This document shows, piece after piece, positions 33,153-49,908 of a stretch of DNA of 64,000 bases. The number at the start of each line of letters is the position of its first letter. Positions within the stretch are counted from its first letter, which is position 1. The notes under the pieces were generated by a model. That model was not told the origin of the DNA. It searched no databases and saw nothing but the letters and a program-made list of their open reading frames with translations. Source of the stretch: Burkholderia sp. Bp8992 (GTDB lineage Bacteria > Pseudomonadota > Gammaproteobacteria > Burkholderiales > Burkholderiaceae); assembly GCF_003853705.1 (NCBI RefSeq), contig NZ_QTQI01000033.1:20489-84488 (forward strand), written 5' to 3'. The position numbers and the translations under genes are program-made.

Positions 33153-33181
33153 TTGACTTTCGCTCGCCCGAATACGATCAT
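33153..33181 (+). promoter_or_regulatory. dalD promoter
   Basis: TTGACT at 33153-33158 and GATCAT at 33176-33181 are separated by 17 bases. The -10 element lies inside the left arm of the 45-base palindrome 33169-33213, so a bound repressor would block RNA polymerase. The same -35, spacing and -10 occur at the promoter of the smoS-like operon at 49.1 kb on the other strand. Confidence 0.65.
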
Positions 33182-33213
33182 TCGCTCACATAAAGAGCAA
33201 ATGATCGTATTCG
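33169..33213. promoter_or_regulatory. Operator palindrome upstream of dalD
   Basis: CGAATACGATCATTCGCTC (33169-33187) and GAGCAAATGATCGTATTCG (33195-33213) are complementary at 18 of 19 positions around the 7-base centre ACATAAA. A near-copy stands at 49126-49170 before the second polyol operon. The size and symmetry suit a SorC/DeoR-type regulator tetramer, and such a regulator is the third gene of this operon. Regulation by it is inferred from position and repetition. Confidence 0.75.
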
Positions 33214-33246
33214 ACTGGAAAGACAGGCACGAACAGGAGACACCGC

Positions 33247-34641
33247 ATGAGCGAATCGCCCTCCGCCCGCGCGCCCGTGCTGCTGCACATCGGCGCCGGC
33301 TCGTTTCACCGCGCGCACCAGGCGTGGTATCTGCATCGCGTGAACGCGGCCGTGCCGGCCGGCGAACGCTGGTCGCTGACCGTCGGCAACATCCGCGACG
33401 ACATGCGCGCGACGATGGACGCGCTCGCCGCGCAGCACGGTGAATACACCCTCGAAACCGTCACGCCGCAAGGCGAGCGCGCATACGAGACGATCCGCGC
33501 GATCACGCGCGTGCTGCCGTGGTCGATCGACCTCGCCGCGCTGATCGACGCCGGCGCCGATCCGGCATGCCGGATCGTGTCGTTCACCGTCACCGAAGGC
33601 GGCTACTACCTCGACGAACACAACCGGCTCGACATCGCGAACGCCGATCTGGCGGCCGACCTGCAGGGCGCGCGCACGACCCTGTACGGCGCGCTCGCGG
33701 CACTGCTCGCCGAACGCATGAAGCGCGGCGCGGGCCCGCTCACGCTGCAGAGCTGCGACAACCTGCGCAACAACGGCGCGCGCTTTCGCGCCGGGATGCG
33801 CGAATTCCTCGAACGGCGCGGTGAAACCGCCCTGCTCGCGTGGTTCGACGCGAACGTCGCGACGCCGAGCGCGATGGTCGACCGCATCACGCCGCGCCCG
33901 ACCGCCGACGTGCGCGAGCGCGTACTCGCGGCCACCGGCTTCGACGACGCGTGCCCGGTGATGGGCGAATCGTTCATCCAGTGGGTGATCGAGGACCGCT
34001 TCGCAGCCGGCCGGCCGCGCTGGGAGCTGGCCGGCGCCGAACTCGTCGACGACGTGCACCCGTACGAGGAAGCGAAGATCCGCATCCTCAACGCGACGCA
34101 CAGCTGCATCGCGTGGGCCGGCACGCTCGCGGGCCATACGTACATCCACGAAGGCACGCACGACGCGGCGATCCGCCGCTTCGCGCACGACTACGTGACG
34201 CAGGACGTGATCCCGTGCCTCACGCCGAGCCCGCTCGATCTCGCGCGTTACCGCGACGTCGTGCTGGAGCGCTTCGGCAACCCGTACGTGCTCGACACGA
34301 ACCAGCGCGTCGCGGCCGACGGCTTCTCGAAGATCCCCGGCTTCATCGCGCCGACGCTCGTCGAATCGTTCGCGCGCGGTGCGGCGCCGGTCGCCACCGC
34401 CGTGCTGCCCGCGCTGTTCCTGCGCTTTCTCGAACGCCGGGCACGCGGCCTGCTGCCGTATGCGTACCAGGACGGCGTGATGGATGAAAGCACCGCGCGG
34501 GCGATCGTCGAGGCCGACGATCCGGTCGTCGCGCTGTGCGCGAGCCGCGCGCTGTGGGGTTCGCTCGCCGGCAACGCGGCGCTGTTCGAGGCGCTGCGCG
34601 CGGGCCTCGCGCGGGTCGATGCATGGCTGGCGCAGCGCTGA
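33247..34641 (+). CDS. dalD: D-arabinitol 4-dehydrogenase (mannitol dehydrogenase family)
   Basis: A 464-residue polyol-specific long-chain dehydrogenase. It oxidises D-arabinitol to D-xylulose with NAD, and related enzymes take mannitol. The nucleotide motif is LLHIGAGSFHRAHQAWYLHR near residues 12-31. The family active site K-x4-N-x2-H appears as KIRILNATH (Lys277, Asn282, His285), and ESFIQWVIED precedes it. The next gene is a xylulokinase, which fits D-xylulose as product and favours arabinitol over mannitol. GGAGACACCGC before ATG 33247 is a good ribosome-binding site. It is first in the operon dalD-xylB-regulator. Confidence 0.9.
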   Translation: MSESPSARAPVLLHIGAGSFHRAHQAWYLHRVNAAVPAGERWSLTVGNIRDDMRATMDALAAQHGEYTLETVTPQGERAYETIRAITRVLPWSIDLAALIDAGADPACRIVSFTVTEGGYYLDEHNRLDIANADLAADLQGARTTLYGALAALLAERMKRGAGPLTLQSCDNLRNNGARFRAGMREFLERRGETALLAWFDANVATPSAMVDRITPRPTADVRERVLAATGFDDACPVMGESFIQWVIEDRFAAGRPRWELAGAELVDDVHPYEEAKIRILNATHSCIAWAGTLAGHTYIHEGTHDAAIRRFAHDYVTQDVIPCLTPSPLDLARYRDVVLERFGNPYVLDTNQRVAADGFSKIPGFIAPTLVESFARGAAPVATAVLPALFLRFLERRARGLLPYAYQDGVMDESTARAIVEADDPVVALCASRALWGSLAGNAALFEALRAGLARVDAWLAQR

Positions 34642-34724
34642 CGCGCATCCGGGCGAACCTGCCTTGGCACGTGCGCTGCCGCGCGGCTAAAGTAGCGATT
34701 CCCCACTGACGGAACGAACCGCTC

Positions 34725-36206
<1,482 letters not shown>

Positions 36207-36317
36207 GCGTGACTGCGGGGCCGCACGCACGACATGCGTTACAGTGGACGCCGTCGTGCGGCCTGCCTGCCGGCCGGCCCGCGGGGCGGGCCCCCTGATC
36301 CGAACCGAATCGCTATC

Positions 36318-37274
36318 GTGTCCAAGTCCTCAGAAAAACTCGATCTCGCCACACGCGCCGCGTGGCTCTACTACGTCGCAGGCGACACGCAGAACGAAAT
36401 CGCCGAGAAGCTGCAGGTGTCGCGCCCCGTCGCGCAGCGCCTCGTCGCGTTCGCGGTCGAGAAGAACCTGATCCGCGTGCGCGTCGACCATCGGCTCGCC
36501 GACTGTCTCGACCTCGGCGCGCAGTTGTCGAAACGCTACGGCCTCGCGATGTGCGAAGTCGTGCCCGTCGACGCCGATGCGCCCGACGCGATCGACCGCA
36601 AGCTCGCGGTCGCCGGCGCGCAGGTGATGGAGCGCTACCTGAACGAAACGCGGCCGATGGTGATCGCGGTCAGCAGCGGCCGGACGCTGAAGGCTGCGGT
36701 CGCGCAGATCGCGCAGATCGACCGCCCGCAGCACCGGCTCGTGTCGATGGTCGGCGCGATCGCGGCCGACGGCTCGTCGAACCGCTACGACGTCGCGCAG
36801 TACATCTCCGAGAAAACCGGCAGCAAGCACTTCCTGCTGCCCGCGCCGCTGTTCGCCGACAGCGACGCCGAGCGCGCGCAGTGGTGCAACCACCGGCTGT
36901 ACCGGATCGTCGAGGCGCTGTCCGGGGAAGCCGACGTCGCGTTCGTCGGGATCGGCAACATCGGCCCGCACTGCCCGCTCTACGAAGACGGCTTCATCAC
37001 CGAACAGGAACGCGACGAGATGACCGCGCTCGGCGCGGTGGCCGAACTGCTCGGCGTGCCGATCGACGCGCAAGGCACGCAGATCACCGTGTCGACGAGC
37101 GCGCGCGTGACGAGCGTGGCGCTCGCGACGCCGCCCAAGCTGCCGACGATCGCGTTCGCCGGCGGCCCGAAGAAGCACGACGCCGTGATCGCGGCGCTGC
37201 GCGGCGGCTGGCTGTCGGGGCTCGTCACCGACGAAGCATGCGCACGCGCCGCGCTCGCCGCGAAGGCGGCCTGA
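36318..37274 (+). CDS. SorC/DeoR-family sugar-binding transcriptional regulator
   Basis: A 318-residue regulator with a short N-terminal helix-turn-helix (YYVAGDTQNEIAEKLQVSRPVAQRLVAFAVEKNLI) and a large sugar-binding domain of the SorC type. That domain includes IAVSSGRTLKAAVAQI, FLLPAPLFADSDAERAQW, ADVAFVGIGNIGP and the C-terminal DEACARAALAAK. Such proteins bind phosphosugars and repress or activate polyol operons. I take the GTG at 36318 as the start because the domain begins right after; no clear ribosome-binding site is seen. It is third in the dalD operon and the best candidate for the shared palindromic operators at 33.2 and 49.1 kb. Confidence 0.87.
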   Translation: MSKSSEKLDLATRAAWLYYVAGDTQNEIAEKLQVSRPVAQRLVAFAVEKNLIRVRVDHRLADCLDLGAQLSKRYGLAMCEVVPVDADAPDAIDRKLAVAGAQVMERYLNETRPMVIAVSSGRTLKAAVAQIAQIDRPQHRLVSMVGAIAADGSSNRYDVAQYISEKTGSKHFLLPAPLFADSDAERAQWCNHRLYRIVEALSGEADVAFVGIGNIGPHCPLYEDGFITEQERDEMTALGAVAELLGVPIDAQGTQITVSTSARVTSVALATPPKLPTIAFAGGPKKHDAVIAALRGGWLSGLVTDEACARAALAAKAA

Positions 37275-37302
37275 CACCGCCGCCGGCGCCGGCGCTAGCC
37301 GC

Positions 37303-38526
37303 TCACGCCGCGCGCGGCGCCGGAAACGCATGGCGGCGTGCGCGCCACGCGCCGATCCACGCGGCCGCCAGCAGCGCGACGAGCACCCACGGAATCGCAC
37401 CCGCGCCCGTCGCGCCGAGCAGCATCCCGCCCGCGATGCCGCCACCGGCGATCGCGAGATTCCACACCGTCACGAGCATCGACTGCGCGACGTCAGCCGA
37501 CTCGCCCGCCGCGTTCGCGGCAGCGGTCTGGAACAGCGTCGGTGCGCCGCCGAACGCGAGTCCCCACAGCGCGACACCCGCGTAGACGATCGCGATCCCG
37601 GAACCGGCGCCGAGCATCAGCGCCGCGAGCGCGAACAGCGCGATGCTGGCGAGCGTCAGCTGCCGTTGCGCCGCGCCGATCCAGGCGCCCGTCAGCGCGA
37701 TGCCGGCCAGCGACGCGATCCCGAACACGAACAGCACCACGTCGACCTGCGCGCCCATCCGCACGCCTGCCAGGAACGGCGCGACATACGTGTACAGCAT
37801 GTTGTGTGCGAGCACGTACGCGAACATCACGGTCAGCACCGGCCGCACGCCGGGCAGCGTCATCACGCCGAGCACCGGCTCGCGTGCGCCGGCGGGCTGC
37901 CCTGGATAGTCGGGCACGCGCAGGCGGATCCAGCCGATCAGCGCGAGCGCGGCCAGCGTGATCAACGCGAACGCGACACGCCAGCCGAACAGCGCGCCGA
38001 GCGCGGTGCCGGCCGGAATGCCGATCGACATCGCCGCCGGTATGCCGAGCATCGCGACCGCGATCGCGCGGCCGCGCAGCGATGGGTCGACCATCCGGCT
38101 CGCATAGCCGGCCAGCAGCGCCCACAGCAGGCCGGCCGACATCCCCGCGACGAACCGCGCGGCCAGCGTGAGCGCGTAGTACGGCGACACGGCCGTCAGC
38201 GCGTTCGATACGACGAAGCCGGCCAGCGCCGCGAGCAACAGGCGGCGCCGGCGCATCGCGCGCGTCGCGGCAACGAGCGGAATCGCCGCGACGATCGAGC
38301 CGAGCGCGTAGACGGTCACCAGTTGGCCGATCAGCGCCTCGGTCACACGCAGGTCGGCGCTCATCAGCGGGAGCAGGCCGGCCGGCAGCGCTTCGGTGAG
38401 CACCGTGATGAAGCCGGCGGTGGCCAGCGCGAGCAGGTTCGCGACGGGCAGGCGCGCACCGGCCAGCGTGGCCGAATCCGCCGGACGATCGGCAGCGCGC
38501 TCGGAAACGGATACGCACTCGCTCAT
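37303..38526 (-). CDS. MFS transporter, drug:H+ antiporter (arabinose efflux) type
   Basis: A 407-residue twelve-segment transporter. It opens with ANLLALATAGFITVLTEALPAGLLPLMSADL, the pattern of the AraJ/DHA1 efflux group, and continues with VYALGSIVAAIPLVAATRAMRRRRLL (loop 2-3) and LGIPAAMSIGIPAGTALGALFGWRVAF (motif C-like). It probably exports a small hydrophobic compound or sugar; the substrate is unknown. The start at 38526 has CGGAG before it and overlaps the stop of the serine hydrolase gene as ATGA, so the two are coupled. Confidence 0.87.
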   Translation of the reverse strand: MSECVSVSERAADRPADSATLAGARLPVANLLALATAGFITVLTEALPAGLLPLMSADLRVTEALIGQLVTVYALGSIVAAIPLVAATRAMRRRRLLLAALAGFVVSNALTAVSPYYALTLAARFVAGMSAGLLWALLAGYASRMVDPSLRGRAIAVAMLGIPAAMSIGIPAGTALGALFGWRVAFALITLAALALIGWIRLRVPDYPGQPAGAREPVLGVMTLPGVRPVLTVMFAYVLAHNMLYTYVAPFLAGVRMGAQVDVVLFVFGIASLAGIALTGAWIGAAQRQLTLASIALFALAALMLGAGSGIAIVYAGVALWGLAFGGAPTLFQTAAANAAGESADVAQSMLVTVWNLAIAGGGIAGGMLLGATGAGAIPWVLVALLAAAWIGAWRARRHAFPAPRAA

Positions 38527-39719
38527 GGCGCACTCCGATCGTCGACGCCATACACCGCATCGCGCACATCGGTGACGATGCGCCCGTGCATCCCTTCGTA
38601 TAACGTATTGGTCAGTGCCACCACCGTCAGCCCTGCCGCCCGGTCGACGAACCACGCATGCCCGTAGGCGCCGCCCCAGCGCCAGGTGCCGACCGATTCC
38701 GGCGATTGCGCGGCCACCGGGTCATGCAGCACGGAAAAGCCGAGCCCGAAGCCGAACCCCGGCGCGTCCGGCAGGTCGTGCGCGCCCGGCTGGATGCGTG
38801 ACATCTCGTCGATCCAGCGCGGTGCGAGCCAGCCGTCGAGGCCCGTGCGCAGCGTATCGAGCAGCGTCAGGCAATCGTGCGCGGTGCCGACCATGCCCGC
38901 GCCGCCCGACGGCCACGCGGTCGCATCGAACGCGCGCGCCGGCTCGAAACGGATGCCGACCGTGCCGTCGAACACCGGCACGAGCTCGTCGTCGGCCATC
39001 CGGCGCGGCGCGCCCGGCGTGCTCACGTAGGGCGTCGCGACGCGCGCGGCGTCATGCGCGACGAATCCGGTATCGGCCATCCCCAGCGGCGTCGTGACGA
39101 GCGCGGCCACGGCATCGGCGAGCGGCCGGCCGTCGACCGCTTCGATCAGCGCGCCGACCACGTCGGTCGCGAGCGAATAGTCCCACGATGTGCCGGGCGC
39201 GAACCGCAGCGGCACACGAGCGATGCGCCGGACGTTCTCCGCCAGCGACAGGCCCGCGCGATCCATCCCGTCGGACACGCCGGCGCGCGCATACGGGCCG
39301 TCGCCATCGGCTTCGAGAAAGCGGTAGCCGAGCCCGGCCGTATGCGACAGCAGATGCCGCAGCGTGATATCGGCACGCGTGCCGTCGGGCAGCGTCGGCT
39401 GGAACGCCGGCAGCCAGCGCGCGACCGGCTCGTCGAGCCCGATGCGCCCTGTCGCGACCAGCCGCATCGCGGCCGCCGTCACGATCGGCTTCGACACCGA
39501 CGCGAGCCGGAACACCGTGTCCTCGCGCATCGGCGTGCCGGCTTCGCGATCGGCCAGCCCGGCCGCGCGTGCATAACGCAACTCGCCGTCGCGCGCGACC
39601 AGCACGACCGCGCCGACCGCGCGCGCGTCGGCCATCGCACGATCGAGCACGGCGTCGAGCCGCGCGCGCAGCGCGGCGTCCGGCTCTCTGCGGTGGGTGG
39701 GGACAGACAGGGATGACAT
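38523..39719 (-). CDS. Beta-lactamase-family serine hydrolase
   Basis: A 398-residue protein of the class C beta-lactamase/esterase fold. The nucleophile motif SxxK is seen as LASVSKP, the tyrosine motif as WDYSLATDVVG, and the third box as GHAWFVDRAAG. Such proteins include esterases, transesterases and D-aminopeptidases; true beta-lactamase activity should not be assumed. There is no signal peptide, so it is probably cytosolic. The start at 39719 (MSSLSVPTHR) follows CGAGG. It leads a two-gene unit with the MFS efflux gene and is divergent from a LysR regulator. Confidence 0.87.
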   Translation of the reverse strand: MSSLSVPTHRREPDAALRARLDAVLDRAMADARAVGAVVLVARDGELRYARAAGLADREAGTPMREDTVFRLASVSKPIVTAAAMRLVATGRIGLDEPVARWLPAFQPTLPDGTRADITLRHLLSHTAGLGYRFLEADGDGPYARAGVSDGMDRAGLSLAENVRRIARVPLRFAPGTSWDYSLATDVVGALIEAVDGRPLADAVAALVTTPLGMADTGFVAHDAARVATPYVSTPGAPRRMADDELVPVFDGTVGIRFEPARAFDATAWPSGGAGMVGTAHDCLTLLDTLRTGLDGWLAPRWIDEMSRIQPGAHDLPDAPGFGFGLGFSVLHDPVAAQSPESVGTWRWGGAYGHAWFVDRAAGLTVVALTNTLYEGMHGRIVTDVRDAVYGVDDRSAP

Positions 39720-39801
39720 GGCGTGACCTCGAACGATGAAGGAACGCCCATCGTAGGGAGCCGGCGCGGGAAGAAAAACCGGGGTAGAGTTCCGGACACT
39801 C

Positions 39802-39817
39802 CGGACATCGATGTCCG
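39802..39817. promoter_or_regulatory. Palindromic operator between serine hydrolase and LysR genes
   Basis: CGGACATCGATGTCCG is a perfect 16-base palindrome, 16 bases before the LysR start codon. The half-site is also present upstream: TCCGGACA occurs at 39791-39798 and again at 39800-39807. Three copies of one half-site in the gap between a divergent pair suggest an autoregulated LysR operator. Confidence 0.6.
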
Positions 39818-39832
39818 TAATCGGGGCCCAGC

Positions 39833-40717
39833 ATGGAAAATCTTGGCGGTTTCGTCGTGTTCGTCCAGGTCGCGGAAACGCGCAGCTTCGTCGCGGCCGG
39901 CCGCGCGCTCGGACTGTCGGCATCGGCGATCGGCAAGCGTATCGCGCGGCTCGAGGCGCGCCTGAACGTGCGGCTCTTTCACCGCAGCACGCGCAGCATC
40001 ACGCTGACGGCCGAGGGCGCGCGCTTTCTCGAACGGTGCCGGCGCGTGATCGCCGAAATCGACGCGGCCGAGCAGGAACTCACGCACAGTGCCGAAGCGC
40101 CGCGCGGGCGCCTGCGCGTGAGCCTGCCGACGATCGGCACGCTGCTGCTGCCGGTGCTCGCCGATTTCATCGCCGCGTATCCGGAGATCGAACTCGACAT
40201 CGATTTCAGCGACCGGCTCGTCGACGTCGTCGATGAAGGCTTCGACGTGGTGCTGCGCACGGGCCAGCCGTCGGATTCGCGGCTGTCGTCGCGACTGCTC
40301 GGCCATTTCCGCCAGCACCTCGTCGCGTCGCCCGGCTACCTCGACCGGCACGGCACGCCGCGCACGCCGGCCGATCTCGCGCGGCATCGCTGCCTGCACT
40401 ACCGCTTCCCGAGCAGCGGCAGGCTCGAGATCTGGCCGCTGCGCGCGCCGCGTGACGGCACGCCGCCGGAGGTACCCGTCTCGATGGTCAGCAACAACGC
40501 CGAGACGCGCCTGTGCTTCGCGCTGCGCGGGCTCGGCATCGCATGCCTGCCCGAGTTCTTCGTGCGCGACGCGCTCGACGACGGCAGGCTGCGCGCCGTG
40601 CTCGACGACCACGTCGCGAGCCGCACGCCGTTCTACGTGCTGTGGCCGTCGGGCCGCCATCCGATGCCCAAGCTACGCGCATTCGTCGACTACATGGCCG
40701 AGCACCTGCGGCTCTGA
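39833..40717 (+). CDS. LysR-family regulator
   Basis: A 294-residue LysR regulator of the CrgA/PecT-like group. The winged helix is FVVFVQVAETRSFVAAGRALGLSASAIGKRIARLEARLNVRLFHRSTRSITLT, and the effector domain begins at about residue 90 (GRLRVSLPTIGTLLLPVLADFIAAYPEIELDIDFSDR). It is divergent from the serine hydrolase-MFS pair, with palindromic half-sites in the gap, so it probably controls that pair. It converges with the polyol ABC ATPase gene 25 bases away. Confidence 0.9.
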   Translation: MENLGGFVVFVQVAETRSFVAAGRALGLSASAIGKRIARLEARLNVRLFHRSTRSITLTAEGARFLERCRRVIAEIDAAEQELTHSAEAPRGRLRVSLPTIGTLLLPVLADFIAAYPEIELDIDFSDRLVDVVDEGFDVVLRTGQPSDSRLSSRLLGHFRQHLVASPGYLDRHGTPRTPADLARHRCLHYRFPSSGRLEIWPLRAPRDGTPPEVPVSMVSNNAETRLCFALRGLGIACLPEFFVRDALDDGRLRAVLDDHVASRTPFYVLWPSGRHPMPKLRAFVDYMAEHLRL

Positions 40718-40742
40718 GCACCGCAGGCGCACGTGCCGTGCG

Positions 40743-41852
<1,110 letters not shown>

Positions 41853-41914
41853 GATCTGTCTCCGTTCGTTCGTGATGCGCCGCGTTGAAAACGGCGCGCC
41901 TTCGTTCCTGATTG

Positions 41915-42601
41915 CTAGTTCGGCAGCACCGCGCCCGTCGCCTGCCAGCGCGCGACGTAGCCGGGCAGCTCGTGCATGTCGTCGAATACGTGACGCGCGC
42001 CGATCCCGCGCAGCGCGTCGATCTGGGCCGCGGACGCATGCCCGCCGCCGACAAAGCCGAGCACGGTCATGCCTGCCGCGGCGGCCGCGGTGATGCCCGT
42101 CACGCTGTCCTCGACCACGAGGCACTGCGCGGGCGCGACCCCGAGCGTGCGCGCGGCCGCGAGATACACGTCGGGCGCCGGCTTCGGCCGCGCGACCGTA
42201 TCGGCGCAAAACAGCCGGTCGCCGAAGAAGCGTGCGAGGCCCGTGCGCGCGAGCGCCGCCTCGACGTATGCGCGATAGCTGTTGCTCGCGCAGGCCGTCG
42301 TCAACGGGATCGCGGCGAGCGCCGCATCGATGCCGTCGACCATCGGCGCATTGACGGCCGCCGCCTCGACCGCGGCGCGGATTTCGACGACGTCGTCGTT
42401 CGACAGCGTCCGCCCCACCGCCTCGGAAGCGCCGGCCAGCACGCGCTCGATGCGCAGCCCGAGCAGCGGCATCACGGCCGGCCGCACATCGATGCCCGGC
42501 CAGCGCACATCGAGTTCGTGCACGAGCACGTCGGCCGCCACTGCCTCGCTGTCGATCAGCACGCCGTCGCAATCGCAGATCAGGACGTTCGTCGCGCTCA
42601 T
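41915..42601 (-). CDS. HAD-superfamily sugar-phosphate phosphatase
   Basis: A 228-residue HAD hydrolase of the beta-phosphoglucomutase-like subfamily. Motif I is ICDCDGVLIDSE (nucleophile and acid aspartates), motif II TTACASNSYR, motif III lysine RPKPAPDVYL and motif IV VVEDSVTGITAA. It probably hydrolyses a sugar or polyol phosphate; its role may be to remove toxic intermediates or release carbon flow. Its start overlaps the stop of the second permease gene as ATGA, so it is translationally coupled inside the transporter operon. Confidence 0.88.
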   Translation of the reverse strand: MSATNVLICDCDGVLIDSEAVAADVLVHELDVRWPGIDVRPAVMPLLGLRIERVLAGASEAVGRTLSNDDVVEIRAAVEAAAVNAPMVDGIDAALAAIPLTTACASNSYRAYVEAALARTGLARFFGDRLFCADTVARPKPAPDVYLAAARTLGVAPAQCLVVEDSVTGITAAAAAGMTVLGFVGGGHASAAQIDALRGIGARHVFDDMHELPGYVARWQATGAVLPN

Positions 42602-43449
42602 TTGACGGCCCCGAACGTGAGCCCGCGCACGAGTTGCTTCTGCGACAGCCAGCCGACGATCAGGATCGGCGCGACCGCCAGCAGCGACGCCGCGGACAGC
42701 TTCGCCCAGAACAACCCTTCGGGGCTCGAGTACGACGCGATGAAGACGGTCAGCGGCGCCGCGTTCGAGCTCGACAGGTTGATGCTCCAGAACGCCTCGT
42801 TCCACGACAGGATCACGAGCAGCAGCGCGGTCGACGCGAGCCCCGGCAGCGCCATCGGCATCAGCAGGTAGACGATCTCCTGCCACGTCGATGCGCCGTC
42901 GATGCGCCCGGCTTCGAGGATGTCCTTCGGGATTTCGTTGAAGTACGTGAAGGTCATCCACACCGCGATCGGCAGGTTGATCAGCGTGTAGACGATCACG
43001 AGGCCCGACACGGTATCGAGCAGCCCCGCGTTCTTCCACAGCAGGTAGATCGGCACCAGCACGCCGACCGACGGCATCATCTTCGTCGACAGCATCCACA
43101 GCAGCACCTTCTGCGTGCGGTGGTTCGGGAAGAATGCCATCGCGTACGCGGCCGGCACCGCGAACAGCAGCGAGATCACCGTGACGCCGGCCGAGATCAG
43201 CACCGAATTCCACGCGAACGAGAAGTAGTTGCTGCGCGCGAACACCTCGCGGAAGCTGTCGAGCGTCGGCATGAAGAACAGCGTCGACGCGTATGCCTGC
43301 TGCTCGGTCTTGAACGCGGTGATCGCCATCCAGAAGATCGGGAAGAACAGCAGCAGCGCGATCAGCCACGCGAGCGTGCCGGGCAGCGCGCGCCGCACGA
43401 GGTCGAATGCAGCCGGCGCGCGCCGGCCTGCGATAGTCAGGTCGCTCAT
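42598..43449 (-). CDS. smoG: Polyol ABC transporter permease 2 (MalG-like)
   Basis: A 283-residue inner-membrane permease with six predicted segments, starting LAWLIALLLFFPIFWMAITAFKTE. The EAA-loop that contacts the ATPase is DILEAGRIDGASTWQEIVYLLMPMALPGL. It pairs with the permease encoded just upstream. Both its start and its stop lie in ATGA overlaps, with the first permease and the HAD gene, so the three are tightly co-translated. Confidence 0.9.
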   Translation of the reverse strand: MSDLTIAGRRAPAAFDLVRRALPGTLAWLIALLLFFPIFWMAITAFKTEQQAYASTLFFMPTLDSFREVFARSNYFSFAWNSVLISAGVTVISLLFAVPAAYAMAFFPNHRTQKVLLWMLSTKMMPSVGVLVPIYLLWKNAGLLDTVSGLVIVYTLINLPIAVWMTFTYFNEIPKDILEAGRIDGASTWQEIVYLLMPMALPGLASTALLLVILSWNEAFWSINLSSSNAAPLTVFIASYSSPEGLFWAKLSAASLLAVAPILIVGWLSQKQLVRGLTFGAVK

Positions 43450-44399
43450 TTTTCGTACTCCCCCTTCAGGTTGCGCGCGAGCATCCGCACGAGGAAGAAC
43501 GACACGACGTTCGCGACCACCACGGCGATGATGCCGCCCGCGGACGCGAGGCCGACGTCGAACTGCTGCAGGCCGAGCGCATAGATCAGGTACGACAGGT
43601 TGGTCGTCGCGTCGCCGGGGCCGCCGCCGGTCGTCGTGTAGATCTCCGCGAAGATCGACAGCAGGAAGATCGTTTCCATCATCACGACCACGGCGATCGC
43701 ACGCTTCAGGTGCGGCAGCGTGATGTAGAAGAACATCGCGATCGGGCCCGCGCCGTCGATGCGCGCGGCTTCCTTCTGCTCCTGGTCGAGCGACTGGATC
43801 GCGGTGAACAGGATCAGGAATGCGAACGGCAGCCACTGCCACGCGACGATGATGATCACCGCGGTGAGCGGGTAATCGGCGAACCAGTCGATCGGCGTCA
43901 TTCCGAGCGCGCGCATCGCGTTCGCGACGAGCCCGTACACCGGATGCAGGATCATGTTCTTCCAGATCAGCGCGGAGACGGTCGGCATCACGAAGAACGG
44001 TGCGATCGCGAGCAGGCGCGCGACGCCCTGCCCGTAGAACTTGCGGTCGAACAGCACGGCCATCAGCACGCCGCCGACCACCGTGATCGCGAGCACCGCG
44101 CCGATCAGCACGAGCGTGTGCCAGATCGCGGGCAGGAACGACGGATCGGTCGCGAGGAAGCGGTAGTTGTCGAACCCGGCGAAACCCTTCACGTCGGGGT
44201 TCAGCAGGTTGTAGCGCGAGAACGAATACCAGATCGTCATCGCGAGCGGAATCGACATCCACAGCAGCAGCACCGCGACGGACGGCGACACGAGCCAGCT
44301 CGCACCGCCGCGCGCGCGGCGCGGCGCGCCCGGCGGCGACGACGCATCGCCGACCGACGGCGCATGAGCGTGACTCAGGGGAAGACGCAGGTGACGCAT
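43446..44399 (-). CDS. smoF: Polyol ABC transporter permease 1 (MalF-like)
   Basis: A 317-residue permease with six membrane segments, beginning WLVSPSVAVLLLWMSIPLAMTIWYSF. The EAA loop reads QEQKEAARIDGAGPIAMFFYITLPHL. The first 40 residues are a polar cytoplasmic tail. The start at 44399 has GGAGGGACT upstream. It is separated from the binding-protein gene by a 114-base gap with a strong hairpin, and its stop overlaps permease 2. Confidence 0.9.
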   Translation of the reverse strand: MRHLRLPLSHAHAPSVGDASSPPGAPRRARGGASWLVSPSVAVLLLWMSIPLAMTIWYSFSRYNLLNPDVKGFAGFDNYRFLATDPSFLPAIWHTLVLIGAVLAITVVGGVLMAVLFDRKFYGQGVARLLAIAPFFVMPTVSALIWKNMILHPVYGLVANAMRALGMTPIDWFADYPLTAVIIIVAWQWLPFAFLILFTAIQSLDQEQKEAARIDGAGPIAMFFYITLPHLKRAIAVVVMMETIFLLSIFAEIYTTTGGGPGDATTNLSYLIYALGLQQFDVGLASAGGIIAVVVANVVSFFLVRMLARNLKGEYEK

Positions 44400-44460
44400 G
44401 ATCGAAGTCCCTCCGGTTGATGCGCGGGCGCGAACGACCTGCCCGCGTTTCAGCTTCGCC

Positions 44461-44496
44461 GGCCCGCGGCGTGTGCAACGGCGCACGCCGCGGGCC
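44461..44496 (-). ncRNA. Intercistronic hairpin between binding-protein and permease genes
   Basis: GGCCCGCGGCGTG (44461-44473) and CACGCCGCGGGCC (44484-44496) are exact complements, and three further inner pairs leave a loop AACG. The structure sits between the stop of the solute-binding-protein gene and the start of permease 1. In malE-malF and similar operons such stems let the binding protein be made in excess by slowing 3' decay or reducing read-through; the same is inferred here. There is no T run, so full termination is unlikely. Confidence 0.7.
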
Positions 44497-44513
44497 GCAC
44501 GACGGCTGACGCG

Positions 44514-45839
44514 TTACTTCTTGTAGCCTGCCTGCCGCACCGCACGGTCGGCGGCGGCCTGGCCCGCGGCGAGCGCCTGGTCGACCGTCATCTGGCCCGC
44601 GACCGCACCGGCGATCGACTGGCCGACCACCGTGCCGAACGACTGGAATTCAGGAATCCCGACGTACTGCACGCCCGTGTACGGCACCTTCTTCAGCGAC
44701 GGGTCGTTCGGGTCGGCCGTCTCGATCGCCTTCAGCACGAAGTCCGAGAACGGCGCGGCCGCCTTGTACTCGGGCCGCTGATACGTCGACGTACGCGTGC
44801 CCGGCGGCACCGACGCCCAACCCTCGTCCTTGCCGACCATCTCGATGTACTGCTTCGACGTCGCCCACGCGATGAACTTGCGCGCGGCATCCTGCTGCTT
44901 CGACGTCTTCGGCACCGCGAGCGCCCACGCCCACAGCCAGTGCGAGCCCTTCGGCGTGGCGGCGACCGGCGCGGCCGCGAAGCCGATCTTGTCGGCCACC
45001 TGCGACTGCTGCTTGTTGTAGAGCATCCCGGCCGCGACCGTCGCGTCGATCCACATCGCGCACTTGCCCGATGCGGTCAGCGTCAGGTTCTCGTTGAAGC
45101 CGTTCGAGCTCGCGCCCGGCGGCCCGTTCTTCTTCAGCAGGTTCACGTAGAAATTGATCGCCTTCTTCCATTCGGGCGACGTGAGCTGCGCGTTCCAGTT
45201 CTCGTCGAACCAGCGCCCGCCGTACGTGTTCACGACCGTCGACACGAACGCCATGTTCTCGCCCCAGCCGGCCTTGCCGCGCAGGCAGATCCCGTAGGTG
45301 CCCTTCGACTTGTCGGTGAGCTTGTCCGCGAAATCCGCGATCTGGTCGTAGGTCGGCTGGTCGGGCATCTTCAGCCCCTTCGCCGCGAACAGGTCCTTGC
45401 GGTAGAACGTCATCGAGCTTTCGACGTAGAACGGCAGCGCATAGAGCTGGCCGTTGTACGACAGGCTGTCGCGCGCGGTCTTCACGATGTCGTTCAGGTC
45501 GTAGTCGGCCGGCAGGCCCGTCATCGGCGCGAGCCAGCCGCGCTTGCCCCACTGCGGCGTCTCGTAGGTGCCGATCGCCATCACGTCGAACTGGCCGCTG
45601 CCGGTCGTGATGTCGGTCGTCGCGCGCTGGCGCAGCACGTTCTCCTCGAGGATCACCCAGTTCAGCTTGATGTCGGGGTTCGCCTTCTCGAACGCCGGCG
45701 ACAGCTTCTTCAGCTCGATCATGTCGGGGTTGTTCAGCGTCGCGATCGTCAGCGTGCCGGCGGACGCCGCGCAGGCCGCCGTCGCGAGCGCGGCTCCGGC
45801 GAAACAGCGTGCGGCGGCGTCGAGCATCTTTCGTTGCAT
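44514..45839 (-). CDS. smoE: Polyol ABC transporter solute-binding protein
   Basis: A 441-residue periplasmic binding protein of the extracellular solute-binding family 1. The signal peptide is about residues 1-27 (MQRKMLDAAARCFAGAALATAACAASA). The mature part opens with GTLTIATLNNPDMIELKKLSPAFEKANPDIKLNWV. Segments such as YETPQWGKRGWLAPMTGLPADYDLNDI and SSMTFYRKDLFAAKG resemble sorbitol/mannitol-binding SmoE. The start at 45839 follows GGAGACATGCC. Ligand specificity (arabinitol, sorbitol, mannitol, galactitol) is not readable, though the pathway genes suggest more than one polyol. Confidence 0.9.
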   Translation of the reverse strand: MQRKMLDAAARCFAGAALATAACAASAGTLTIATLNNPDMIELKKLSPAFEKANPDIKLNWVILEENVLRQRATTDITTGSGQFDVMAIGTYETPQWGKRGWLAPMTGLPADYDLNDIVKTARDSLSYNGQLYALPFYVESSMTFYRKDLFAAKGLKMPDQPTYDQIADFADKLTDKSKGTYGICLRGKAGWGENMAFVSTVVNTYGGRWFDENWNAQLTSPEWKKAINFYVNLLKKNGPPGASSNGFNENLTLTASGKCAMWIDATVAAGMLYNKQQSQVADKIGFAAAPVAATPKGSHWLWAWALAVPKTSKQQDAARKFIAWATSKQYIEMVGKDEGWASVPPGTRTSTYQRPEYKAAAPFSDFVLKAIETADPNDPSLKKVPYTGVQYVGIPEFQSFGTVVGQSIAGAVAGQMTVDQALAAGQAAADRAVRQAGYKK

Positions 45840-45910
45840 GGCATGTCTCCTGTGATTGTTCGAAATGTCGTCGGTCTTGCGTGGTGTTGCGTCGTTTCCT
45901 TCGCGGCCCG

Positions 45911-47272
45911 TCATGCCGGCCGCTGCATCCCGCACGCGCGCGCATAGTGCGCGATCACGTCGCGTATCCGGTGGCGCACCCAGGCGCGCGGTTCCTTCGC
46001 GAGGCCGCCCGCGCGGCATGCCGCGTAGACATCCGGCAGCCACTGCGCGACGAGCGTCTCCGGCACCGGCTGCCGCGCGAGGTTGCCGAACAGCTGCTCG
46101 ACCGCGGCCGCGACGGCCGGCTGCAGCCAGTAATAGCGGATGCGGTCGCTGTAGCTGAACTGGCGTGCGAGCCGCTGCTCGGTCTCGTCGCCGCGGTAGT
46201 ACGGCGCCCAGTGCTCGGGCTGCGCGCGCATCGCGGTGTCGACGACGTCGCGCAGCCGCGAGCGCTGCGCGACGTCGTCGATCAGCGCATCCTCGATGAA
46301 CGTCAGCGCGAACAGCGCCTCGCGCAGCGCGAACGTCAGCGCGGGGCCGACCTTCAGCACCGCGAAGTGGTCGCGCACGAGCGCGGCGAGCGCGCCTTCG
46401 GTCTGGTAATCGGTCGAATGCGCCTCGAATACGAGGCGAGGTGTCTGCAGGATACTCGCGCCGAGCGACGCCGCCTTCGCACTGTCGTAGTCGAGCACGT
46501 GGCGATCGTCGAAGTCGACACCCGGCTGCGCGACGATCGCGACGACGCGCGTCCATGCATCGTCGAGCCCGGCTGCCGCGAACGCGCGGCGGTGCGCGTC
46601 GAGCGTCGCCGCGATGCTGTCGCTGCGCGTGACCGCGATTCGCGCGATCGCCGCATCGTCCCCGTCGTTCGCACTGCCGCTCACTTCGCCGCCCGGCGTC
46701 GGCACCTCGGTGCCGATCACATAGACGGGCGCGATCCCGGCGCGCTGCGCCGCGTCTTCCGCCGCGCGGCACAGCTCGGCCGCGCGTGCGGCGATCGTGC
46801 GGTCGTCGAGCCGCACCGGATCGTCCGCGCACGCCATGCTCGCATCGAGGTGGATCTTCTCGAAGCCGGCCTCGACATAGGCGGCGACCATCGCGACGGC
46901 CTCGCGCATCGCGTCGGCCGCGCGGCGATGCCGCCACGGATTCGGGCCGAGGTGATCGCCGCCAAGCACGAGCGCCGACGGCGCGAGCCCGCAACGCGCG
47001 GCGATCGCATCGACGTCGCGGCGGAAATCGGCAGGCGTCATGCCCGTATAGCCGCCGAGATGGTTCACCTGGTTGCAGGTTGCCTCGATCAGCAGCGGCG
47101 AACCGTCCGCGCGCGCAGCTTCGCACGCGGCCTCCAGCACGAGCCGGTGCGCACTGCAGATCGAATAGATGCCGCGCTGCGCGTCGGCGCGGTTCGCGTC
47201 GAAGATCATCCGCAGCACCGCGTCCGCATGCGCGGTGCGCGGGCGCACGGCGAAGGACGTCAGGCCGGACAT
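45911..47272 (-). CDS. GatZ/KbaZ-family protein (tagatose-phosphate epimerase or aldolase subunit)
   Basis: A 453-residue protein of the D-tagatose-1,6-bisphosphate aldolase non-catalytic-subunit family. The family hallmark is GIYSICSAHRLVLEAACEAA...LLIEATCNQVNHLGGYTGMTPADFRRDV, followed by LVLGGDHLGPNPWRHRRAADAM and FEKIHLDASMACADD. It is about 30 residues longer than E. coli GatZ at the N-terminus. No catalytic partner (GatY/KbaY) is encoded in the window. In Agrobacterium, a family member next to a polyol transporter works alone as tagatose 6-phosphate 4-epimerase, and that role fits better here. Its start lies inside the last 13 bases of the kinase gene. Confidence 0.87.
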   Translation of the reverse strand: MSGLTSFAVRPRTAHADAVLRMIFDANRADAQRGIYSICSAHRLVLEAACEAARADGSPLLIEATCNQVNHLGGYTGMTPADFRRDVDAIAARCGLAPSALVLGGDHLGPNPWRHRRAADAMREAVAMVAAYVEAGFEKIHLDASMACADDPVRLDDRTIAARAAELCRAAEDAAQRAGIAPVYVIGTEVPTPGGEVSGSANDGDDAAIARIAVTRSDSIAATLDAHRRAFAAAGLDDAWTRVVAIVAQPGVDFDDRHVLDYDSAKAASLGASILQTPRLVFEAHSTDYQTEGALAALVRDHFAVLKVGPALTFALREALFALTFIEDALIDDVAQRSRLRDVVDTAMRAQPEHWAPYYRGDETEQRLARQFSYSDRIRYYWLQPAVAAAVEQLFGNLARQPVPETLVAQWLPDVYAACRAGGLAKEPRAWVRHRIRDVIAHYARACGMQRPA

Positions 47273-48216
47273 GCGATACCTCGTTCGGTCAGGAAGCGGT
47301 CGATCTCGGCCGCGCTGCTGTTGCCTTCCATCGGACCGCGCCGCGTGACCGCGATCGCGCCGGCCGCGTTCGCGCGGCGCAGTGCGGCATCGATCGGCAC
47401 GCCCGCGACGAGGCTCGCGACCAGCGTGCCGCCGAAGCAGTCGCCGGCACCGGTCGGGTCGACTTCGTCGACCGGAAAGGCCGGTGCGTCGACGCGGCTC
47501 GCACGGTCGAACGCGACGCTGCCCTCTGCGCCGCGCTTCAGCACGACGCGCTCGAGCAGCGGATGCGTCGCGAGCAGGCCCGCGATCGCGCGCTCGGCCG
47601 GCTGCGGCCCGCAGAAGAACGGCAGGTCGGCCTCGCTCGGCAGGAACAGGTGGCACGCGGCGAGCATCTCGTCGAGCGCCGCGCGCATCGGGCGAAAACC
47701 CAGCATTTCGGGGCGCACGTTCGGATCGAACGACACCTTGGCTCCGGTGCGCGCGGCCTCGATCACGCCGCGCTGCACGGCGGCGATCGCCGATTCGCTC
47801 GTCAGCGACGAGCCCATCACGTGAAAGTAGCGGCAGCCGTCGAACATCGCGCTATCGACGTCGGATGCATCGACGCACGCGGCCGCGCTGGTGGCCAGCG
47901 TAAACACGAAGCTGCGCGAACCGTCTTCGCGATACGCGACGAACGCGGTGCCGGTCGGGCGTGCGACGCGGCGGATGCGTGCGACCTCGACGCCGTCGCG
48001 TTCGAGCCGCGCGACGATCGCGTCGCCGAACGCATCGCGGCCGACGCAGCCCGCATACGCGACACGCGCGCCGAGCCGCGCGGCCTGGTCGGCGAAGATC
48101 GCCGGCGCGCCGCTCGGAAACGGTCCGGCGAACAGGCCCGGCGTCTCGAAACCCTGGCCGCGCTCGGCGGCGACGAATTCGGCGAGCAGTTCGCCGGCGA
48201 CGACGATCTCGGCCAT
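47260..48216 (-). CDS. PfkB-family sugar kinase, probably tagatose or fructose kinase
   Basis: A 318-residue ribokinase-like kinase. The N-terminal AGELLAEFVAAERGQGFETPGLFAGPFPSGAPAIFADQAARLGARVAYAGCVGRDAFG holds the substrate-site residues. The anion-hole motif DPTGAGDCFGGTLVAS carries the catalytic aspartate. Between a sorbitol/galactitol dehydrogenase and a GatZ-family protein, it should phosphorylate the ketose made by the dehydrogenase (tagatose or fructose). The exact substrate is inferred. Its 3' end overlaps the next gene by 13 bases, and its start is 78 bases from the end of the dehydrogenase gene. Confidence 0.88.
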   Translation of the reverse strand: MAEIVVAGELLAEFVAAERGQGFETPGLFAGPFPSGAPAIFADQAARLGARVAYAGCVGRDAFGDAIVARLERDGVEVARIRRVARPTGTAFVAYREDGSRSFVFTLATSAAACVDASDVDSAMFDGCRYFHVMGSSLTSESAIAAVQRGVIEAARTGAKVSFDPNVRPEMLGFRPMRAALDEMLAACHLFLPSEADLPFFCGPQPAERAIAGLLATHPLLERVVLKRGAEGSVAFDRASRVDAPAFPVDEVDPTGAGDCFGGTLVASLVAGVPIDAALRRANAAGAIAVTRRGPMEGNSSAAEIDRFLTERGIACPA

Positions 48217-48294
48217 CAGGCGTGCCCTCCTCGTTCGCCGGCGGCCGCTTCGTCGCGGGCCGGCAGGCAGGTTGCGCGTGCGAGCGGCATCACG

Positions 48295-49071
48295 TCAGCT
48301 CATCCAGTTGCCGCCGTCGACGTTCAGCGTCTGGGCAGTGATGTAGTCGGAATCGGCCGACGCGAGGAACAGCGCGGCGCCCGTCAGGTCGCCCGGCACG
48401 CCCATGCGGCCGAGCGGCACGGCTTCGCCTACAAGCCGCTTCTTCTCGCCGAGCGGCCGGTTCTCGTAGCGCGCGAACAGCGCGTCGACCTGTTCCCACA
48501 TCGGCGTGTCGACGACGCCCGGTGCGATCCCGTTCACGTTGATCCGGTGCGGCGCGAGCGCGAGCGCGGCCGACTGCGTATAGCTGATCACCGCGGCCTT
48601 GGTCGCGCAGTAGTGCGAAACGAGCGCCTCGCCGCGACGGCCGGCCTGCGACGACATGTTGACGATCTTGCCGCCGCGCCCCTGCTCGACCATCCGCTGC
48701 GCGACGGCCTGCATCAGGAAGAACAGCCCTTTCACGTTGACCGCGAACAGCCGGTCGAACACGTCCCACGATTCGTCGAGGATCGGACGCATGTCGAACA
48801 GCGCCGCATTGTTGAACAGGATGTCGACGCCGCCGAAGCGCTCGACCGCCGTCGCGACGATCCGCTCGATGTCGTCGCGGCGCGTGACGTCCGCGGTGAC
48901 GGCCACCGCGCGGCCCGGGTTCGCCTCGATCAGCCGCGCGAGCGAGCCGCTGGCGGGCTTCAGGTCGACGAGCACGCAGCACGCGCCCTCGTCCAGATAG
49001 CGTTGCGCGACCGCCTCGCCGATGCCGCTTGCGGCGCCCGTCAGGATCGCGACCTTGTCTTCCAGTCTCAC
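48295..49071 (-). CDS. smoS: SmoS-like polyol dehydrogenase (SDR family)
   Basis: A 258-residue short-chain dehydrogenase. NAD motif TGAASGIGEA, NNAA near residues 87-90, catalytic serine in NMSSQAGRRGEA (Ser140/141), and Tyr154/Lys158 in SHYCATK. It closely resembles the sorbitol dehydrogenase SmoS of Rhodobacter, including AALFDMRPI, INVNGIAPGVVDTPMWEQVDALFARYENRPLGEKK and the end NVDGGNWMS. SmoS-type enzymes oxidise sorbitol to fructose and galactitol to tagatose. It leads the second polyol operon, with the shared operator 55 bases before its start. Confidence 0.9.
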   Translation of the reverse strand: MRLEDKVAILTGAASGIGEAVAQRYLDEGACCVLVDLKPASGSLARLIEANPGRAVAVTADVTRRDDIERIVATAVERFGGVDILFNNAALFDMRPILDESWDVFDRLFAVNVKGLFFLMQAVAQRMVEQGRGGKIVNMSSQAGRRGEALVSHYCATKAAVISYTQSAALALAPHRINVNGIAPGVVDTPMWEQVDALFARYENRPLGEKKRLVGEAVPLGRMGVPGDLTGAALFLASADSDYITAQTLNVDGGNWMS

Positions 49072-49125
49072 TGGCTGTCTCCGGTTCGTTCTGCTGTACG
49101 ACGGCCACGAGGTGAGCGAACGCTC

Positions 49126-49170
49126 GATGACCGATCAATTGCTCTGTTAGTGATCGAATGATCGGATACG
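49126..49170. promoter_or_regulatory. Operator palindrome upstream of the smoS operon
   Basis: Read on the minus strand, CGTATCCGATCATTCGATC, a 7-base centre ACTAACA, then GAGCAATTGATCGGTCATC. It matches the dalD operator at 16 of 19 positions in the first arm and 12 of 13 in the core of the second, with identical centre length. It overlaps the -10 element of the promoter at 49186-49158. It is the likely control site of the whole minus-strand polyol operon. Confidence 0.72.
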
Positions 49171-49186
49171 CGATACGCGCTGTCAA
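49158..49186 (-). promoter_or_regulatory. smoS operon promoter
   Basis: On the minus strand, TTGACA (49186-49181) and GATCAT (49163-49158) lie 17 bases apart. The -35 is a perfect consensus. The same GATCAT with the same spacing forms the dalD promoter, in both cases inside the operator's first arm. The start codon of the dehydrogenase is about 87 bases downstream. Confidence 0.68.
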
Positions 49187-49354
49187 GACGACGTGACGGC
49201 TTTCTATGACGCGCTGCCGCACAGCGGCGCATGACGATGCGCCGCCGCGCCCGCTCGACAAGGCGAGAGGCGCACGGTGCGGCGCAGTGGCAGCGGCGGT
49301 GAAAGGGACGGAGCGGGAACGGAAAGGAGAATTCGCGCTGCACGGCGCGACGAT

Positions 49355-49366
49355 ACGTTATATCAT
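49355..49366. promoter_or_regulatory. Candidate Zur box upstream of zur
   Basis: ACGTTATATCAT matches 10 of 12 positions of the Zur-box core ATGTTATAACAT and lies 35 bases before the zur start. It suggests the zur-znuA-znuC-znuB operon is repressed by its own first product when zinc is sufficient. The match is from memory of the consensus and only one copy is seen. Confidence 0.55.
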
Positions 49367-49400
49367 CGCCATACTTTGTTTCATCGCCCTGCTTCACGCC

Positions 49401-49862
49401 ATGGCTACCTCCTCGTCCATTGACGCCCGGCTGTCCCGGGCCGACGCATTCGCCGCCGAGCACGGGCTCGCGTGGACGCCGCTGCGCCGTCAGGTCTACG
49501 AACGCGTGCTGGCCGCGCAGCGCCCGATCGGCGCGTACGACCTGCTCGCCGAACTCGAACCGCAGCGCGGCCGCGTGCCGCCGACCACCGTCTATCGCGC
49601 GCTGGATTTCCTCGTCGAGCACGGCTTCATCCACCGGATCGAATCGAAGAACGCGTTCCTCGCGTGCTGCGAGATCGGCGTGCCGCACGAAGGTCAGTTC
49701 CTGATCTGCGATTCGTGCGGCGACACCGTCGAGATTCCCGGCGGCGACCTCGCGAAGCAGCTGTCCGCGAGCGAGCCCGCACACGGTTTCGAAGTCCACC
49801 ACCAGGTCGTCGAGCTGAGCGGCCTGTGCGGGCACTGCAAGCGCAAGCCCGCCCAGCGCTGA
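49401..49862 (+). CDS. zur: Zinc uptake regulator, Fur family
   Basis: A 153-residue Fur-family regulator. The winged helix covers residues 10-85 with TPLRRQVYERVLAAQRPIGAYDLLAEL and RVPPTTVYRALDFLVEHGFIHRIE. Two CxxC pairs, CDSCGD and GLCGHCKRK, form the structural zinc site as in Zur. It is grouped with znuACB downstream, so zinc rather than iron is the inferred signal. The start at 49401 (MATSSSIDAR) lies after the Zur-box candidate; an in-frame ATG at 49206 would put that box inside the gene. It is divergent from the polyol operon. Confidence 0.92.
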   Translation: MATSSSIDARLSRADAFAAEHGLAWTPLRRQVYERVLAAQRPIGAYDLLAELEPQRGRVPPTTVYRALDFLVEHGFIHRIESKNAFLACCEIGVPHEGQFLICDSCGDTVEIPGGDLAKQLSASEPAHGFEVHHQVVELSGLCGHCKRKPAQR

Positions 49863-49908
49863 CGCCGTATCGCGCGGCCACGCGCCGCCCCTTCCAACGA
49901 GGAGTTCC

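Follow-up and report, generated by a model that had tools for sequence, protein, structure and literature searches.

Two convergent polyol operons and their promoters

The window, by which we mean the whole 64-kb stretch of Burkholderia DNA that was analysed, contains a dalD operon on the plus strand and a smoS operon on the minus strand. The two had originally been described as distant; in fact they face each other across no more than 16 kb, and the regulator gene lies in between. The genes are listed below, with profile matches in parentheses.

33247..34641, plus strand: dalD, D-arabinitol 4-dehydrogenase (NF043014, 740 bits, cut-off 600)
34725..36206, plus strand: xylB, xylulokinase (TIGR01312, 558 bits, cut-off 380)
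36318..37274, plus strand: SorC-family regulator, DeoR subfamily, SmoC-like; third and last gene of dalD-xylB-sorC (PF04198, 174.5 bits, cut-off 27)
40743..41858, minus strand: ABC ATPase, MalK/UgpC type (PRK11650, 473 bits, cut-off 432)
41915..42604, minus strand: HAD-family phosphatase (TIGR01509, 63.6 bits, cut-off 29.4)
42598..44396, minus strand: two ABC permeases, 44396-43446 and about 43446-42598 (UgpA/GlcT- and GlcU/MalG-related, sub-cut-off)
44514..45860, minus strand: sugar ABC substrate-binding protein, start approximate (weak sub-cut-off family matches; syntenic in relatives)
45911..47239, minus strand: tagatose-bisphosphate aldolase subunit, GatZ/KbaZ type (TIGR02810, 637 bits, cut-off 569)
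47260..48216, minus strand: PfkB-family kinase, tagatose kinase-like (NF049991, 332 bits, under its cut-off of 420)
48295..49071, minus strand: smoS-like SDR, L-iditol/sorbitol 2-dehydrogenase (NF005472, 478 bits, cut-off 338)

The top named match of the HAD phosphatase was HxpB (84 bits, under its cut-off of 191). An MFS transporter, a PF00144 (beta-lactamase family) protein and a LysR gene (39833) lie between the operons.

The regulator contains the sugar-binding C-terminal domain PF04198 that defines the SorC family. Its proposed start at 36318 (GTG) coincides with the beginning of the orthologue alignment; an ATG first appears in the frame at 36234. The orthologue profile covers full-length DeoR 8r7y (5-312), also aligns with LsrR 4l5i, and spans the DeoR DNA-binding domain 7bhy (4-56), whereas CggR aligns only from position 66. 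Judged by its sequence, the protein carries a short homeodomain-like HTH of the DeoR subfamily and not the winged CggR type. In the best segments, it is 98-100% identical to the regulators of Burkholderia cenocepacia and relatives, which places the window close to these species. The nearest genome scanned (G001, 94% complete) has one PF04198 gene above the cut-off.

The promoter elements ahead of the two operons are as follows, with the basis of each assignment in parentheses.

33153..33181, plus strand: dalD promoter, TTGACT, 17 bp and GATCAT, the last from 33176 (sequence, pattern scan)
33176..33187, plus strand: dalD half-operator 1, GATCATTCGCTC, bases 1-6 doubling as the -10 (sequence, site scan, column frequencies)
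33195..33206, plus strand: dalD half-operator 2, GAGCAAATGATC, 19 bp from dalD half-operator 1 (sequence, site scan, column frequencies)
49158..49186, minus strand: smoS promoter, TTGACA from 49186, 17 bp and GATCAT from 49163 (sequence, pattern scan)
49152..49163, minus strand: smoS half-operator 1, GATCATTCGATC (sequence, site scan, column frequencies)
49133..49144, minus strand: smoS half-operator 2, GAGCAATTGATC (sequence, site scan, column frequencies)
49114..49125, minus strand: smoS half-operator 3, GAGCGTTCGCTC, again after a 7-bp spacer (sequence and comparison of smoS promoters)

The original observation, that both promoters share TTGAC(A/T), a 17-bp spacer and GATCAT, with the operator beginning inside the -10, is exact. 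In the window, the joint promoter-operator pattern (up to two mismatches) occurred at these two places only; 100 dinucleotide-shuffled versions gave a mean of 0.00. A search for the full site, allowing three mismatches, found those two places and, at dalD, the reverse strand as well, with 0.00 expected. The near-palindrome with a 7-bp centre claimed for dalD corresponds to a gapped palindrome at 33170-33212, in which 17 of 18 arm positions are paired; a single palindrome of this geometry in the window scores better, and that one (46239) sits within a coding region. The agreement between the two operators that had been given, 16 of 19 positions for the first arms and 12 of 13 for the second-arm cores, matches both sequences when compared by eye. 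The description of the arms required refinement: each arm is itself a 12-bp dyad, and the operator reads better as two dyads, GANCANNTGNTC, placed 19 bp apart, to which smoS adds a third.

An inverted repeat standing just ahead of genes could also represent an RNA element, namely a hairpin in the 5' leader. We rejected this reading because the first arm contains the -10, so that a complete copy of it is not expected in the transcript. Protein binding is also the better match for the constant spacing and for the presence of a third dyad, and the probability left to an RNA element is close to negligible.

Conservation and genome-wide distribution of the site

Among 80 named loci, the site (up to four mismatches) lies ahead of 75 of 75 dalD and 55 of 55 smoS genes, counting those whose start falls within the fetched DNA; six partial genes (five smoS, one dalD) are cut by the locus end. 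TTGAC(A/T) and the 17-bp spacer are present in every one of these 75 dalD and 55 smoS promoters, and GATCAT forms the first six bases of the site in all but one of the 130. As predicted, the arms are kept between species: the half-operator columns are largely fixed across the named relatives, and the DNA downstream of the site drifts. Within the site, the consensus frequency averages 0.88-0.91, in comparison with 0.76 in the 40 bp upstream (the promoter) and 0.42-0.61 downstream. The exact 12-mer of the third dyad, given above, recurs in 27 of the 55 smoS promoters, and the mean pairing at this position is 4.49/6, versus 1.61 at the equal offset in dalD promoters. The remaining matches in the 80 loci, read row by row, corresponded to the opposite strand of a site or to the register with the third dyad.

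We observed a close association between the site and the regulator gene. Across 349 genomes of the family, 159 contain both the site and a SorC-type gene, 16 the gene only, 3 the site only, and 171 neither; because these genomes are mutually related, the P value of this table is overstated and carries little weight, and the contrast within the genus is clearer. In the window's genus, regulator and site occur together in 49 of 51 genomes, and neither the site nor dalD was found in the two genomes lacking the regulator. In the genomes tested for dalD, the gene was present in 9/9 with the regulator and 0/14 without it. The reversed-pattern control gave none among the matches listed in the family scan, and a simple base-composition model predicts about 0.005 sites per genome by chance. 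Of 300 genomes of the order that were scanned, 12 had a match to the regulator (E up to 1e-20) and four had the strict pattern. All four are among the 12, with two places each and regulators 76-97% identical.

The motif was also expected to be uncommon away from sugar genes, and this expectation was borne out. The whole-genome scan of G001 located the site twice, at the dalD and smoS operons. Among the 49 site-bearing genomes of the window's genus, 46 have exactly two places, three have one, and none has three. In the three one-place genomes, the smoS site (dyads GATCATTTGATC and GAGCAATTATTC) has four mismatches, one past the limit.

The exceptions in the family were inspected individually. 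Seven of the 16 regulator-only genomes (genus label g152) carry a diverged operator scoring 13-14/16. In the other nine (three g144 and six g149, the g149 regulator being 36-39% identical), no convincing operator was found; for two g144 and four g149 genomes, the search covered only about 4 kb around the regulator, with the operon start outside, and 20 kb was searched in G310, G315 and G348 only. G310 has one 13/16 pair 322 bp ahead of the SBP gene, which is indistinguishable from the 20-kb background. Among the site-only genomes, G354 and G386 have three-mismatch matches and no regulator, and these matches were read as chance. In G574, the site lies 117 bp ahead of a smoS relative, and neither the regulator nor dalD was found; we read this site as a remnant. 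In the g153 genus, five of the seven genomes searched have an extra site, located ahead of an SDR gene that stands alone. The identity of this SDR is 88-97% to the L126 copy and about 31% to smoS, and the extra site may be read as growth of the regulon.

A different transcription factor, either the LysR protein at 39833 or an unlinked one, might read the sites, given that the LysR gene sits between the operons and that an unlinked factor common to these genomes would be compatible with the co-occurrence. As regulator, the LysR protein was rejected: in 59 of the 80 loci, 58 of them with the site, no counterpart of the 39833 gene was found. Moreover, the distribution of the sites follows that of the SorC gene, SorC relatives in other families also have related dyads next to them, and the spacing of the sites resembles that of SorC tetramer operators. 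We regard another factor as very unlikely.

Dyad spacing and comparison with known systems

The gaps between the regulator and the adjacent operon start were scored for dyad pairs at spacings of 13-30 bp. A spacing of 19 bp gave scores of at least 12/16 in 10 of 11 gaps (9 of 10 distinct, two being one place) and in 12 of 15 gaps of a second set; the half-operator consensus derives partly from six of the 11 gaps, and the 15-gap set, unused for it, is the more independent. All other spacings reached this score in at most three gaps, and Markov-simulated sequences in 1-2%. Together, the two sets make up 25 distinct gaps next to related regulators of the phylum. Such relatives (E up to 1e-40) occur in 41 of 299 sampled genomes of the phylum and are not all established polyol regulators. 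Half-operators 1 and 3 both depart from the consensus, with fits of 6.9/8 and 5.9/8, respectively. In the g152 genomes and L027, a second dyad pair lies 52 bp upstream.

A -35 element (at least 5/6) was located 16-18 bp upstream of the best pair in 20 of 28 gaps, the S. meliloti and Paracoccus records among them, versus 1.6% of control positions. No good -35 was found at the best pair in the other eight (L030, L215, L216, L217, L230, L231, L235 and a Klebsiella plasmid); in L230, TTGACA lies 15 bp away, and the L231 gap is cut. The dalD-xylB gap of the Klebsiella plasmid contains a 13/16 pair without a clear -35.

A close characterised counterpart is SmoC of Sinorhizobium meliloti, a negative regulator whose mutant is constitutive; in this organism, smoS serves for sorbitol and galactitol, and mtlK for mannitol and D-arabitol (PMC10433430). 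The regulator in one S. meliloti record (L242) is 42% identical to the Burkholderia regulator, and its neighbours (SBP, two permeases, ATPase, L-iditol dehydrogenase, mannitol dehydrogenase, HAD hydrolase and kinase) constitute the smo gene set. By gene content rather than locus tag, we identified L242 as the probable smo locus. The record is labelled plasmid pSymB and comprises 3.7 Mb. Behind TTGACA, it carries GAGTAATTGCTC-7-AGGCAAATGCTC, a pair in the 19-bp register scoring 13/16, so the operator is shared as well. The Burkholderia regulator likewise lies beside a smoEFGK-type importer, smoS and an mtlK/dalD-type dehydrogenase, as in the SmoC regulon. The arrangement differs in that S. meliloti smo is one operon, whereas Burkholderia has two convergent ones. 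We judge the regulator to be a SmoC-like SorC repressor, probably equivalent in Burkholderia to the rhizobial SmoC. In S. meliloti, tagatose, sorbitol and mannitol are also linked to a second regulator, SMb21372 (PMC4560400), and SmoC therefore may not act alone there.

DeoR and CggR of Bacillus subtilis bind as dimers of dimers (tetramers) to two half-operators, 39 and 45 bp in all, and respond to phosphosugars (PMC11229326). On the DNA side, the present operator is likewise two-part, with two dyads in a 19-bp register, close to the repeat distances in the printed operators (22 bp for DeoR, 20 bp for CggR). DeoR, which binds as a tetramer, shares the subfamily, a two-part operator and a similar half-site (GAACA, versus GANCA here). 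It differs in having a left palindrome with a poor right half in the 22-bp register, in the operator position at -60 to -21, and in its effector, deoxyribose 5-phosphate (PMC11229326). The CggR operator resembles the present one in having two palindromes, which lie in a 20-bp register and are bound by one tetramer; CggR differs in its winged-helix DNA-binding domain, its operator sequence and the operator position at +32 to +77 (PMC11229326).

EryD, a polyol regulator resembling SmoC (PMC10433430), is tetrameric in Ochrobactrum and has its operator, eryO, within the promoter (PMC10190533). In contrast to the sites described here, eryO is a 29-bp operator between the -35 and the -10, from which EryD represses, with erythritol as the reported inducer (PMC10190533). 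A phosphorylated ketose is accordingly a conjectural effector for the Burkholderia regulator. In S. meliloti, the behaviour of an eryD mutant suggested that EryD regulates both positively and negatively (PMC10433430), and the SorC protein could similarly bind the sites yet act mainly as an activator, or in both ways. The sites, however, begin in the -10 and extend downstream, the smoC mutant is constitutive, and EryD itself repressed from within the promoter; we consider activation improbable. Because SmoC, whose gene accompanies the same set of genes, acts negatively and gives a constitutive mutant (PMC10433430), repression through a blocked -10 appears to be the likeliest mode.

In the open-access papers searched, we found no description of this operator, and RegPrecise may contain a predicted regulon; the main texts of PMC4560400 and PMC5343134 lack the terms SorC and DeoR. 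The operator appears to be new, and the regulator is of an already known kind.

A proposed SorC regulon and its history

Very probably, the two promoters belong to a single regulon under the SorC-family (DeoR-subfamily) protein encoded at 36318-37274 and serve as its operators, with tetramer-bridged repression that a polyol, or a polyol product, releases. The original prediction envisaged one regulator for D-arabinitol oxidation, a second polyol route and the ABC importer. It is supported, and four observations favour the SorC gene in this role: its co-occurrence with the site, the gene order in relatives, the resemblance of the sites to operators bound by SorC tetramers, and the smoC mutant of S. 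meliloti (PMC10433430).

In the proposed mechanism, one DNA-binding dimer would sit on each of the 12-bp dyads, and a tetramer would bridge two dyads in the 19-bp register across the -10 and the start region. The bound tetramer would shut off dalD-xylB-sorC and smoS-tagK-gatZ-ABC. A polyol, or the product of one, would release the tetramer, and the importer, both dehydrogenases, the kinases and the regulator would therefore rise together. As the last gene of the dalD operon, the regulator would be subject to its own control. The third smoS dyad might provide a second register or tighter control.

Gene orders in relatives point to the history of the two operons. In six Burkholderiales of other families, the regulator (54-60% identical) faces a single gene run, (smoS)-SBP-two permeases-(HAD)-ATPase-dalD-xylB, with smoS present in 2/6 and HAD in 5/6. 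In G311, smoS through xylB and the regulator form one run with one site. Judging from the gene order, such runs are presumably operons. One run has one site and two runs have two sites; therefore, the sites follow the transcription units. In Burkholderia, a regulon that was once a single run has apparently been divided between two operons, each with its own operator. The same single runs would agree with the likeness being a leftover of promoter duplication at the split, without present co-regulation. The higher consensus frequency in the site than in the DNA on either side argues against such a leftover, which we consider extremely unlikely.

More broadly, the polyol-type SorC repressors of Pseudomonadota may share a strict grammar, in which GANCANNTGNTC dyads with an exact 19-bp period are placed on the -10 and copied to new transcription units (the second Burkholderia operon and the g153 SDR), with three dyads at smoS. 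One or two overlapping tetramer registers might then set different repression strengths. We hold this generalisation at about even confidence.

In B. pyrrocinia P10, dalD was up (log2 1.43) in the presence of exudate from peanut roots, among whose components are xylitol, sorbitol and arabitol (PMC10061817); this response is only suggestive with respect to the polyol regulon. For SmoC, the mutant phenotype is already known, and the available text of PMC10433430 does not describe an operator for the smo locus. The present sites provide a testable DNA code for a repressor group adjoining sugar-alcohol genes, making the polyol regulons of this group readable from sequence. They also offer an example of how an operon could split yet keep shared control.

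Further features in and around the two operons

Four stretches of the window lie in or beside the dalD and smoS polyol operons:

37303-40717: MFS transporter, PF00144 protein and LysR genes, between the two operons
45911-48216, minus strand: GatZ/KbaZ and tagatose-kinase-like genes of the smoS operon
46239-46281: perfect 18-bp inverted repeat with a 7-bp centre, within the aldolase-subunit coding region
49206-50820: Fur/Zur-family regulator gene and ZnuA-type gene, divergent from smoS

The LysR gene was found in 21 of the 80 named loci of relatives, and the block carrying it therefore looks like an insertion or a loss outside the regulon. Among the same loci, some of which are cut by locus ends, the GatZ/KbaZ gene was detected in 24 and the tagatose-kinase-like gene in nine. 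Since, in addition, smoS is directly followed by a substrate-binding protein gene in many relatives, the tagatose branch looks optional in this operon.

Predicted operators in relatives

Genome G574 (3.9 Mb) retains a smoS-type site 117 bp upstream of a smoS relative (L127:10017); searches of this genome for the SorC-family regulator and dalD found neither. This may be a natural example of an operator site that lacks its regulator. In genus g153, five of the seven genomes searched carry a predicted operator ahead of a stand-alone SDR gene that lies outside the polyol cluster (L122:9989, L123:10007, L124:10037, L125:9997 and L126:9926), and this gene possibly encodes another polyol dehydrogenase.

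In some Burkholderiales, the same gap holds two operator pairs 52 bp apart, one of them adjoining the -35 element.

Loci with two operator pairs (positions in each locus)
L027: 10662 and 10714
L079, L080, L081, L083 and L085 (genus g152): 2491 and 2543
L082 (g152): 1393 and 1445
L084 (g152): 1388 and 1440

Paired predicted operators at this distance could allow bridging, or could serve the divergent regulator gene.
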